Below, piece after piece: positions 1-34,297 of a DNA stretch of 64,000 nucleotides. Positions within the stretch are counted from its first letter, which is position 1. Every line of letters begins with the position of its first letter. The stretch comes from Bifidobacterium pseudocatenulatum DSM 20438 = JCM 1200 = LMG 10505 (GTDB lineage Bacteria; Actinomycetota; Actinomycetes; Actinomycetales; Bifidobacteriaceae): contig NZ_AP012330.1 of NCBI RefSeq assembly GCF_001025215.1, positions 2,249,753 through 2,313,752 of the forward strand. The letters run 5' to 3'. Under the pieces are notes generated by a model. The model was not told where the DNA came from and made no database searches. It saw only the letters and a list, made by a program, of their open reading frames with translations. Both the position numbers and the translations under genes were made by a program.

Positions 1-1500
1 ATTTTCGGCTTGGCAGTAGGCATGGTCGCCGACCTGTTATTTGAATCGTTGCGATCTTTCGGCTGGGAGACGACCACAAGCCGTATTTTGATGGAATTGT
101 TCCTGCCGTTCATTCTGTATTTGGGTGCGGAAGCGGTGCATGTTTCCGGCATTCTTTCGGTGGTGACGGCCGGTTTGATCATCCGTTTCGATCGCACCGG
201 CATCGGCCCGAATGTGGCTCGCACCAACATTGTTTCGTCAAGCGTATGGGGGGTATTCTCGTTCACGCTCAACGGCACGGTGTTCATTCTGCTTGGCATG
301 TTGCTGCCGAATGCGATGAGCGCAAGCTGGGACGATCCGCAAGTCAGCAATTGGCTGCTACTGGTTGCGATTCTTACGGTTTCCGCAGTGGTAATCATCA
401 TGCGATTCCTGTGGATTTCATTGATGCTACGTCTCGCGCGAGATACCGTCACCGGCAAGCGACGCAAGATGACGGCGCAACGTTGGCGTTCGGCCGCGGT
501 CATGACGTTCGGCGGGCCGAAAGGCACCATCACCCTGTCATTGATGTTCACGATCCCGTACACCATTACGGGAGGCGCGTGGTTCCCCATGCGTGACGAA
601 CTGATCTTCATCGCAGGTGGCGTGATCGTCGTAACCTTGCTGCTCGCCAACTTCCTGCTGCCGCTGCTGGCGCCGAATCGCAATAAAGACACTTCCGTGG
701 AAATGACCGAAATCACCATCGAAGTGCTGCGACGGACCGTGGAGGAACTGACGGGACGAGTCACACCCGACAATCGTCGTGCGGTGCTGATGATCATCGA
801 CTCGTATACGAAACGTATCACACGACTGAAGCAGCGCATCGGAGAAATCGATCCGCAAGGGTATATGCAACTGCAGATCGACGCGCTCAACTGGGAGAAG
901 GAATACGTCAAGGCGCGACTGGCGAAAGTCAAGGCGACGACGAACGACGACAAGGCAGCGCACGATCTGGAAATCGAAGCATGCGAGCGCCTGCTCGACC
1001 AGATCATGAGCTCTCTGCGCCATATCGAAACGGAACATAATTCCGGACGCACCATCTGGCGAGTCAAAGGCCGCTTCAGGGCGTTGCAGAGGCGTTTGGG
1101 CACGGTGGTGAAGCGTGTGAACAGCCGCATTCGCCGCACTACCCCGCTGTTCAGCGACGACGAGCTGTTCGCGCACACCCGCGCGGTGCAGGTGGATGCC
1201 ATCGAACATGTGATCGACCGCCTGTATGAGGAGATGGGCCGCGACACGTACAATACGGAACATTGCTCGGCACTGCTGCTGGATTACCGACGAGGCGAGG
1301 CTACGCTGAGGTCGCGCCCGAATGTGGGCACGAGCGCGGAGGCGCAGGCGCAGGCGGAAGAGGTGAAGCGCGAAAGCTACGGTATCGAGCTGGGTGTGAT
1401 CCAAGACATGTACGAGGCGGGTGACATTACGCGCGCGCAATCCAAGCAGCTGCGACGCAACGTGTATGTGATGAGCGTGGACGCCGACGCGCAGATCTAG
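1..1500 (+). CDS. Na+/H+ antiporter (CPA1/NhaP type), 3' part, copy A
   Basis: The reading frame is open from the first base, so the gene begins outside the window. Compared with the full copy at 23816-25888 (690 aa), the first 191 residues are not seen here. The visible part holds the later transmembrane helices, the conserved GPKGTITLSL segment of the exchanger core and a roughly 250-residue charged C-terminal cytoplasmic region rich in Lys, Arg and Glu, with probable coiled coil. The family swaps Na+ or K+ for protons across the membrane in pH and sodium homeostasis. Whether the off-window 5' part is intact decides if this copy is functional or a truncation; it cannot be judged here. Confidence 0.9.
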   Translation: MFGLAVGMVADLLFESLRSFGWETTTSRILMELFLPFILYLGAEAVHVSGILSVVTAGLIIRFDRTGIGPNVARTNIVSSSVWGVFSFTLNGTVFILLGMLLPNAMSASWDDPQVSNWLLLVAILTVSAVVIIMRFLWISLMLRLARDTVTGKRRKMTAQRWRSAAVMTFGGPKGTITLSLMFTIPYTITGGAWFPMRDELIFIAGGVIVVTLLLANFLLPLLAPNRNKDTSVEMTEITIEVLRRTVEELTGRVTPDNRRAVLMIIDSYTKRITRLKQRIGEIDPQGYMQLQIDALNWEKEYVKARLAKVKATTNDDKAAHDLEIEACERLLDQIMSSLRHIETEHNSGRTIWRVKGRFRALQRRLGTVVKRVNSRIRRTTPLFSDDELFAHTRAVQVDAIEHVIDRLYEEMGRDTYNTEHCSALLLDYRRGEATLRSRPNVGTSAEAQAQAEEVKRESYGIELGVIQDMYEAGDITRAQSKQLRRNVYVMSVDADAQI

Positions 1501-1814
1501 CATCCAACTGATCTGATGGGATCAGCAAGCTGGCGTGAGCCGGTGATCCGCAGCGAGTTTGTCTGCGGACGAACTGTGGAAACGTGGGGGACGAGACAAC
1601 TGTAGGAACGGAACACGGCGTGGAAGGCGGCAAACTGGAGGCCATTCCACAATCTAAAACATGAGGGAATTGAAATTCTCAGATATTTCCCAGAAAACAC
1701 CAGACATGTACTCAGCATCGTCTGTTTATATAGGAGATGTCAGCAAAAGAGCCGACCAGGAACCCACAGCAGTTCCCGACAATTGAACCCTTTCTTCTTC
1801 TCTCTCCTTTCTCT

Positions 1815-1849
1815 CCCCGGTGGTTTTCTCTCCACCGGGGTTTCTTTTT
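1815..1849 (+). terminator. Rho-independent terminator
   Basis: Arms CCCCGGTGG (1815-1823) and CCACCGGGG (1832-1840) pair perfectly across an 8-base loop and are followed by TTTCTTTTT. It lies about 315 bp past the antiporter stop. The stretch 1501-1814 contains no gene I can support, so either the antiporter mRNA has a long 3' UTR or a short RNA is made there. Confidence 0.8.
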
Positions 1850-1860
1850 GCCCTCAACGG

Positions 1861-2010
1861 GTGGATTCCTCCAGCCAGTGGGAGAATCCGCCCGCTGGCA
1901 GCTCACTCAAAGTCCAGAAACCGCCACTCACTGGAACAATCACCCCGCTGGCAAGCCGCCCAACGTCCCAATCCTTCCAGTGACTGGGAGGATTGCCCCG
2001 CTGGAACGGG
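1861..2010. repeat. Three degenerate ~52-bp repeat units
   Basis: A core resembling CCAGTGACTGGGAGGAT followed by CNCCCCGCTGG occurs at about 1871-1898, 1924-1951 and 1976-2003, with a 52-53 bp period. The third unit contains a 25-bp near-palindrome (1970-1994). A related unit lies at about 4085-4170. The elements sit in intergenic DNA before the esterase start and at the end of the dcd/zinc-protein segment. They resemble a genome-interspersed repeat family more than coding sequence. Confidence 0.6.
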
Positions 2011-2016
2011 TATATT
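2011..2016 (+). promoter_or_regulatory. -10-like hexamer for a probable leaderless esterase mRNA
   Basis: TATATT ends 6 nt before the ATG at 2023. The GGAGG between them is too close (about one base) to act as a normal Shine-Dalgarno sequence. Initiation at or next to the start codon would fit. No good -35 is visible. Confidence 0.45.
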
Positions 2017-2022
2017 GGAGGC

Positions 2023-32059: not shown

Positions 32060-32230
32060 GCCCCGAAAAAACCCAATGATAGCTTCAAACGCCAGACGAC
32101 AAATCATCACACTGTAAAAAATGATCACAAAACGATCGATCTCGAAACCAGACTCCAAAAAAGAAGCCTGGCGAAATCGCGATAAAGCAAACGATGACAT
32201 CACATCATCGCATTGCTCGCGTCCACTATC

Positions 32231-32248
32231 CAGTTCTCAAACCACCAC
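32231..32248 (-). promoter_or_regulatory. boxA-like motif in the 16S-23S spacer, copy B
   Basis: Same GGTTTGAGAACT element as 7843-7860. No tRNA in the spacer 32060-32508. Confidence 0.65.
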
Positions 32249-32508
32249 GCGCCCCGACCGGACCCGACCCGCGGCCCGCAAGGCCGACGGCGTCCCACCA
32301 GGGGCATCCGGAAAACCGCACGCACCCAAAACGGATGCGGGTGGCGGTCCGGGAACCCAAAAGCATATCCGCACCACTCCCCGCCGGCCCCAAGGACCCG
32401 CGAAGCCAACGATCTCTTCCACACCAGCACGCCCACACGAACCCGGGAACCATCCCCGGCGCATGGGCCACACGACGGACGCCAGACCGGCGTCCTGAAA
32501 AACTCCGT

Positions 32509-34038
32509 AGAAAGGAGGTGATCCAGCCGCACCTTCCGGTACGGCTACCTTGTTACGACTTAGTCCCAATCACGAGTCTCACCTTAGACGGCTCCATCCA
32601 CAAAGGGTTAGGCCACCGGCTTCGGGTGCTACCCACTTTCATGACTTGACGGGCGGTGTGTACAAGGCCCGGGAACGCATTCACCGCGGCGTTGCTGATC
32701 CGCGATTACTAGCGACTCCGCCTTCATGGAGTCGGGTTGCAGACTCCAATCCGAACTGAGACCGGTTTTCAGGGATCCGCTCCACGTCGCCGTGTCGCAT
32801 CCCGTTGTACCGGCCATTGTAGCATGCGTGAAGCCCTGGACGTAAGGGGCATGATGATCTGACGTCATCCCCACCTTCCTCCGAGTTGACCCCGGCGGTC
32901 CCCCGTGAGTTCCCACCATGACGTGCTGGCAACACAGGGCGAGGGTTGCGCTCGTTGCGGGACTTAACCCAACATCTCACGACACGAGCTGACGACGACC
33001 ATGCACCACCTGTGAACCCGCCCCGAAGGGAGGCCATATCTCTACGGCTGTCGGGAACATGTCAAGCCCAGGTAAGGTTCTTCGCGTTGCATCGAATTAA
33101 TCCGCATGCTCCGCCGCTTGTGCGGGCCCCCGTCAATTTCTTTGAGTTTTAGCCTTGCGGCCGTACTCCCCAGGCGGGATGCTTAACGCGTTAGCTCCGA
33201 CACGGAACCCGTGGAACGGGCCCCACATCCAGCATCCACCGTTTACGGCGTGGACTACCAGGGTATCTAATCCTGTTCGCTCCCCACGCTTTCGCTCCTC
33301 AGCGTCAGTAACGGCCCAGAGACCTGCCTTCGCCATTGGTGTTCTTCCCGATATCTACACATTCCACCGTTACACCGGGAATTCCAGTCTCCCCTACCGC
33401 ACTCCAGCCCGCCCGTACCCGGCGCAGATCCACCGTTAAGCGATGGACTTTCACACCGGACGCGACGAACCGCCTACGAGCCCTTTACGCCCAATAATTC
33501 CGGATAACGCTTGCACCCTACGTATTACCGCGGCTGCTGGCACGTAGTTAGCCGGTGCTTATTCGAAAGGTACACTCACCCGAAGGCTTGCTCCCGATCA
33601 AAAGCGGTTTACAACCCGAAGGCCGTCATCCCGCACGCGGCGTCGCTGCATCAGGCTTGCGCCCATTGTGCAATATTCCCCACTGCTGCCTCCCGTAGGA
33701 GTCTGGGCCGTATCTCAGTCCCAATGTGGCCGGTCGCCCTCTCAGGCCGGCTACCCGTCGTAGGCTCGGTGGGCCGTTACCCCGCCGACTACCTGATAGG
33801 ACGCGACCCCATCCCATACCGATGAAATCTTTCCCGACACCCCATGCGAGGAGTCGGAGCATCCGGCATTACCACCCGTTTCCAGGAGCTATTCCGGTGT
33901 ATGGGGCAGGTCGGTCACGCATTACTCACCCGTTCGCCACTCTCACCACCAAGCAAAGCCTGATGGATCCCGTTCGACTTGCATGTGTTAAGCACGCCGC
34001 CAGCGTTCATCCTGAGCCAGAATCGAACCCTCCACAAA
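32509..34038 (-). rRNA. rrs: 16S ribosomal RNA, copy B
   Basis: Identical to 8121-9650, with the same genus and B. catenulatum group signatures. Ends approximate. Confidence 0.97.
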
Positions 34039-34218
34039 AAAACTTTGCAGAAAGCCAACATGTGACTCTCAAAAACAAGAAAATTGACGATCGCCTTATA
34101 AGGAAAGGCGCATCGCACGAAAACCTCACCGTCCTTCAAGGCCTCCCGGCCACTCGCGAACGAGCGGACGATGAACTGGCAATCATTGACTATAAAGAAG
34201 TAGTACAAATACGCTCTT

Positions 34219-34236
34219 GAGTTCTCAAACCACCAC
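34219..34236 (-). promoter_or_regulatory. boxA-like motif in the rrn leader, copy B
   Basis: Same element as 9831-9848. Confidence 0.65.
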
Positions 34237-34297
34237 CGCTCACCCGCCTCGAGGCACCCCAGCCGGGGAACCACTCGCCGAGCGGCAGCGAAGAGTC

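Follow-up and report, generated by a model that had tools for sequence, protein, structure and literature searches.

A tandem repeat bounded by rRNA operons on the origin side of the deposited Bifidobacterium pseudocatenulatum JCM 1200T chromosome, probably a real duplication

A head-to-tail repeat in the deposited chromosome

In the deposited chromosome of Bifidobacterium pseudocatenulatum DSM 20438 (JCM 1200T; NZ_AP012330.1) we found a unit of 24,388 bp, made up of a 5.6-kb rRNA operon (rrn) and about 18.7 kb of genes (the segment SEG), standing twice head to tail. The stretch analysed (the window, 64,000 nucleotides) corresponds to genome positions 2249753-2313752, which close a single contig of 2,313,752 bp; a dnaA domain is encoded at base 445 of this contig, and the window therefore ends on the origin side. 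The tandem repeat is present in the deposited sequence, and it probably reflects a real and recent rearrangement in the sequenced culture, brought about by homologous recombination between rrn operons lying on the same strand.

A first-pass annotation of the window had claimed that 1-9901 equals 24389-34289. We found a match at 9900 of the 9901 positions, with the sole mismatch at 9874. The left edge, which it had placed at base 1, is a mere window edge, and the repeat extends upstream: in full, genome 2229617-2259653 corresponds to 2254005-2284041 over 30,037 bp, with an identical run of 30,009 bp followed by a single mismatch ahead of the repeat end. BLAST joins the two copies as 30,043 columns with one mismatch and one gap, and chance similarity was rejected for a near-perfect match of 30,037 bp. 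The second copy of 10135-24388 for which the annotation had proposed a search is indeed found upstream, with window 10200-24200 matched at 100% identity, and a third rrn precedes the window, again spaced by 24,388 bp. Of the order segment-rrn-segment-rrn proposed earlier, the tandem arrangement stood; with the third operon included it reads rrn1-SEG-rrn2-SEG-rrn3, and the full array in the assembly is S3-rrn1-SEG-rrn2-SEG-rrn3-R, where S3 is a neighbouring segment of 69 kb and R the origin-proximal one. The repeated unit is 24.4 kb long (18.7 kb outside the rrn) instead of the 14-15 kb given before.

The window opens with the right end of the first SEG copy (1-4252, identical to 24389-28640), the rest of which starts at about genome 2235.3 kb (genome 2235564-2249564 matched at 100%). 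The two copies are joined by rrn2 on the minus strand (4253-9901), as delimited by Rfam matches to 5S, 23S and 16S rRNA, by its flanks and by alignment. The second SEG copy is complete (9902-28640, about 18.7 kb outside the rrn) and shows no difference from the other copy 24,388 bp upstream, which gives a rough 95% upper bound on divergence of 1.6e-4 per site. It is followed by rrn3, also on the minus strand (28641-34289; Rfam), whose leader side meets R and where the repeat stops. The unique flank R (34290-64000) runs to the contig end, with the sequence restarting at dnaA, and contains GH3, protein kinase, parB/parA, gidB and yidC-type genes (Pfam); it matches the origin-side end of the B. 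kashiwanohense JCM 15439 chromosome in order, to both contig ends. In window-equivalent coordinates the limits of the repeat are at 4253, five bases past the 5S gene, and at 34261-34289, upstream of 16S where the common leader of the operons stops. Both repeat ends fall in an rrn region, a feature of rrn-mediated tandem duplication.

The rRNA operons

In the window the rRNA genes lie on the minus strand (Rfam), with 5S at 4258-4375 and 28646-28763, 23S at 4589-7670 and 28977-32058, and 16S at 8123-9650 and 32511-34038. Six matches to 16S were found in the genome, all in the same orientation, as expected of the partner operons of an rrn-mediated tandem duplication, and the six operons are presumably co-directional with replication. 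Six copies of 16S and 23S are also given for JCM 1200T in Table 1 of PMC5312088. The 5S-side flank of rrn2 is that of rrn3 and its leader-side flank that of rrn1, so that one flank comes from each parent operon.

The operons rrn1, rrn2 and rrn3 show no difference over window 4258-9873. Recent recombination or conversion would leave the operons identical in this way, and a single consensus used repeatedly would do so just as well. We tried to place the crossover within rrn2 by operon-specific variants; this failed because the three operons do not differ over this range. The operons at S0|S1, S1|S4 and S4|S3 (the vertical bar denoting an rrn between two segments) differ from rrn1-3 over the same range at 48, 8 and 18 aligned positions, respectively. 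Some variants of the S0|S1 and S1|S4 operons are at least about 1.7 kb away from the edges of the repeat, which argues that these operons were finished individually. The operon at 1703.0-1708.6 kb carries specific variants in the middle of 23S and in the 16S-23S spacer that were unseen in the other five operons.

Segment order in related genomes

For comparison we used a genus set of 112 genomes, of which 24 were single contigs by our own count, while the drafts may hide repeats; no second B. pseudocatenulatum genome was present among the 80 loci retained or in the one-per-species collections. The gene dcd (dCTP deaminase), which lies in SEG, occurred twice at full length in this genome only (1/112), with shorter matches (longest 246 bases, in G068) not counted as copies. 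Surroundings of the rrn were compared in G064, G044, G030, G052, G062 (N4G05) and G013 and in B. kashiwanohense JCM 15439 (NZ_AP012327.1; G001/G045). We take G044 to be B. catenulatum, G030 B. adolescentis and G052 B. dentium.

Our genome has the order S1|S4|S3|SEG|SEG|R. In G044 (2,079,525 bp) it is S1|S4|SEG|S3|R, and G064 (2,370,978 bp) has the same order, with its SEG match ending about 13.6 kb short of the next rrn. The intervening stretch (G064 2251522-2265153) was mostly unmatched in the sequences compared and in part resembles the SEG esterase region (74% match). JCM 15439 has five rrn and the order S1|SEG|S3|S4|R, with 16S at 2102661, 2131511, 2202697 and 2304940. Both G030 and G052 show S4|SEG-S3|R with no rrn after dcd, G013 likewise has SEG-S3, and N4G05 has no rrn between dcd and S3. 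On contig 5 of N4G05 (77659-83440) S3 and S1 meet at one rrn, a join that is unproved because the assembly is a draft. SEG lies between two rrn in two relatives (JCM 15439 and G044, each with one dcd) and is only partly rrn-flanked in G064 (right rrn about 13.6 kb past dcd), G030, G052, G013 and N4G05.

Since S4, SEG, S3 and R follow one another in G044, G064, G030 and G052, we take this order as ancestral and regard the rrn after dcd as an acquisition by some members of the B. catenulatum group. The flank at window 3862-4182, beside the rrn after dcd, is 94% identical to genome 2154792-2155112, at the rrn after S4; this suggests that one of these two operons may be a copy of the other, carried with its 3' flank. 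Compared with G044 and G064, the segment order of our genome changed exactly at rrn and with orientation kept, as in a translocation. In the earlier scheme one rrn-flanked segment was doubled; the doubling stood in the assembly, where SEG has in addition moved past the neighbouring S3.

Proposed route of the rearrangement

Unequal crossing-over between two rrn flanking the segment, the mechanism put forward in the first-pass annotation, remains the best fit, given that the repeat ends in rrn, that a copy is present upstream and that SEG lies between two rrn in two relatives. The rearrangement could have started from an ancestral S1|S4|SEG|S3|R-origin order. A crossover between the two rrn that flank SEG would leave the junction S4R|S3L (suffixes R and L for right and left segment ends) and a SEG circle, and a SEG dimer might then insert at the rrn between S3 and R, creating S3R|SEGL, SEGR|SEGL and SEGR|R. 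Every junction of the array has an rrn, and the four non-ancestral junctions are exactly those expected from excision and dimer reinsertion, in a scheme that was drawn after the junctions had been seen. An alternative route, by tandem duplication, partial loss and a second duplication, would reach the same end state in more steps. Either way the chromosome would gain one rrn operon, the sixth, together with a further copy of all 12 SEG protein genes, roughly 30-84 kb from dnaA. The array in the assembly, the rrn at its junctions and the segment orders at the rrn of relatives are read from the sequences themselves; that the array exists in cells, how it arose, that it depends on RecA and is unstable, and any dosage benefit are inferences.

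Real event or assembly artefact

Support for a real duplication comes from PacBio genomes of five B. pseudocatenulatum strains with an average nucleotide identity of at least 99.88% among them, of which C15 and C55 have six rRNA operons and C1, C62 and C95 have five (PMC5312088). Such variation between near-identical strains counts toward a real event. Strain JCLA3, assembled by single-molecule real-time (SMRT) sequencing, is listed with 16 rRNA genes, a number that five operons plus an additional 5S gene would account for. According to PMC5312088, dot plots confirmed high synteny, JCM 1200T being less collinear with the five strains and differing from them in places, an outcome that fits a real event and an artefact alike. 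On balance, we regard a real duplication in the sequenced culture as more probable than its absence.

Several observations weigh against this reading. The array is known from the deposited assembly alone, and SEG|SEG arrays should be unstable. JCM 15439, presumably a record from the same sequencing project, likewise breaks with the ancestral order precisely at rrn, which real shuffling and misjoining at rrn would both explain. The lack of differences among rrn1-3 would equally follow if a single consensus had been entered three times, and the variants of the S4|S3 operon, found towards its flanks, argue less for individual finishing. In the relatives, segments were identified from their outermost few kb on both sides, and little of their interiors was read. 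The sixth operon of C15 and C55 may or may not lie in such an array, and the first deposited genome of B. longum NCC2705 is reported to have been misassembled at three rRNA operons (PMC1285363).

The rearranged order might accordingly be an assembly artefact, with a single SEG, maybe in its ancestral place, and contigs misjoined through the near-identical 5.6-kb rrn so that SEG was placed twice. All odd junctions lie in rrn, the array operons show no internal difference over window 4258-9873, JCM 15439 displays an rrn-bounded permutation too, NCC2705 provides a precedent, and G064, taken as the SMRT-assembled strain PV20-2, for which five rRNA operons were described (PMC4319591), keeps the order S4, SEG, S3, R. 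Assemblers, however, normally collapse identical repeats, and a double SEG should need a SEGR-rrn-SEGL link or double depth; the two other operons of the same assembly with variants well inside the repeat edges and the six operons in two of the five PacBio strains also speak against misjoining, which leaves an artefact unlikely though a serious contender. A closely related possibility, which overlaps with a real rearrangement instead of excluding it, is a mixed population in which part of the cells of the stock carried the duplication, the assembly recording one of the states. In Streptococcus iniae QMA0248, which has a tandem rRNA duplication, PacBio and Nanopore data of the one strain were reported to give different dominant states (PMC9176272), and the five or six operons among near-identical B. 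pseudocatenulatum strains would be in line with such a situation. From the assembly alone it makes the same prediction as a rearrangement throughout the culture, and we consider it a possible, if tentative, variant. Two independently acquired or old paralogous SEG copies are favoured only by the existence of two copies; the absence of any difference in about 18.7 kb compares with a difference of about 5-12%, by matched piece, between the SEG of this genome and that of JCM 15439. Ancient paralogy was therefore rejected unless gene conversion erased every difference, and we regard separate origins of the copies as highly improbable. A real, rrn-mediated duplication in the sequenced culture remains our preferred explanation.

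Comparison with known systems and significance

Tandem duplications between rrn were reportedly described in Escherichia coli and Salmonella by Hill et al. in 1977 and by Anderson and Roth in 1981. Like the array described here, these comprise a head-to-tail repeat of a segment between co-oriented rrn, and their join operon takes one flank from each parent. They were reportedly shown genetically in laboratory strains, whereas our case is read from a deposited sequence alone, in an actinobacterial host, and with the segment also relocated. In host-specific Salmonella serovars, rrn-bounded translocations and one Pullorum strain with a duplicated region have been described (PMC2957434). There, as here, inter-rrn regions change order, although many strains were compared, partly by PCR according to that report, and our comparison covers single assemblies of several species. 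The duplication in S. iniae QMA0248 is alike in being tandem and rRNA-associated, with variable copy number and assembly doubt; its authors exclude a distal rrn as recombination partner (PMC9176272), whereas one is needed here. The error in B. longum NCC2705, of the same genus, was a wrong arrangement of segments, and the available account mentions no extra segment copy (PMC1285363).

The array is thus a new instance, in a bifidobacterium, of a known type of event and not a new kind. The duplication was named in no title or abstract opening listed by our literature searches, which does not show it to be unreported. The genome of JCM 1200T was reportedly announced by Morita et al. in 2015 in J Biotechnol.

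JCM 1200T is the type strain and has served as a complete reference genome of the species. Should the array be real, this reference has one rRNA operon, the sixth, and duplicate genes beyond what array-free strains carry; this would bias 16S copy correction as well as work on gene dosage and metagenome depth, and a gut commensal would offer a natural example of amplification driven by rrn. Should it be an artefact, a reference chromosome needs correcting at four joins. More speculatively, and with low expectation on our part, rrn-bounded segments of the origin arm in the B. catenulatum/pseudocatenulatum group might be mobile, amplifiable cassettes with co-oriented rrn as recombination sites. 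In this species SEG, with its functions in alpha-galactoside use, its rrn dose and the only exact parS-like site of the genome, would then move toward the origin and vary in copy number, coupling changes in diet-linked sugar use, in ribosome capacity and in partition sites.

Gene content of the segment

SEG encodes 12 protein genes (Pfam), described here by their positions in the window. Beside the leader of rrn2 lies an open reading frame (ORF) for a BD-FAE-type esterase (10135-11208, minus strand; PF20434, 3.5e-51), followed by genes for a Sir2-family protein (11344-12099, plus strand; PF02146) and a threonine deaminase-like pyridoxal phosphate enzyme (12346-13611, minus strand), which matched PF00291 above the cut-off and ACT just below it and which we name ilvA by inference. 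Genes related to sugar use encode a GH13 alpha-glucosidase-like enzyme (13827-15647, minus strand; PF00128, 4.9e-153), a sugar ATP-binding cassette transporter (16049-19214, minus strand) with two permeases (16049-16933 and 16972-17925, PF00528 in both) and a solute-binding protein (17922-19214, PF01547), a ROK-family regulator (19413-20624, plus strand; PF00480) and a GH36 alpha-galactosidase (20714-23146, minus strand; PF02065, 1.8e-145). The remaining genes, all on the plus strand, are a Na+/H+ antiporter ORF with an uncertain start codon (23183-25888; PF00999, the domain beginning at residue 225 of the mechanical ORF), a carboxylesterase (26381-27214, copy at 1993-2826; PF02230, matched on the latter copy) and dcd (27462-28043, copy at 3074-3655; PF22769, matched on the latter copy). 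The extra dose of an rrn, the alpha-galactoside locus, dcd, the antiporter and a parS-like site that had been claimed from the window holds in the assembly, and ilvA is likewise present in extra dose.

The parS-like site is an exact 16-bp palindrome at window 11295-11310, with its other copy at genome 2236659, found by matching to what we take to be the parS consensus. No exact parS-like site exists in this genome apart from these two, one per SEG copy; four copies with one mismatch lie in its last 8 kb, around the ParB/ParA pair. An exact site is located inside SEG in G044, outside SEG in G064 and JCM 15439, and near the origin end in G030 and G052. Because of the exact sites outside SEG in these last four genomes, a link between parS and SEG is not general.

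Outside the array, a stretch of about 7.2 kb at genome 2219217-2226453 (L017:9465-16701) encodes a binding protein, a LacI regulator, a GH13 enzyme and two permeases; the stretch is absent from the matching place in JCM 15439, G064, G044 and N4G05. Its GH13 gene is 92% identical to that of SEG and has inverted orientation. Within R, a 54-bp stretch at window 54154-54207 is 89% self-complementary and reads as a long hairpin.

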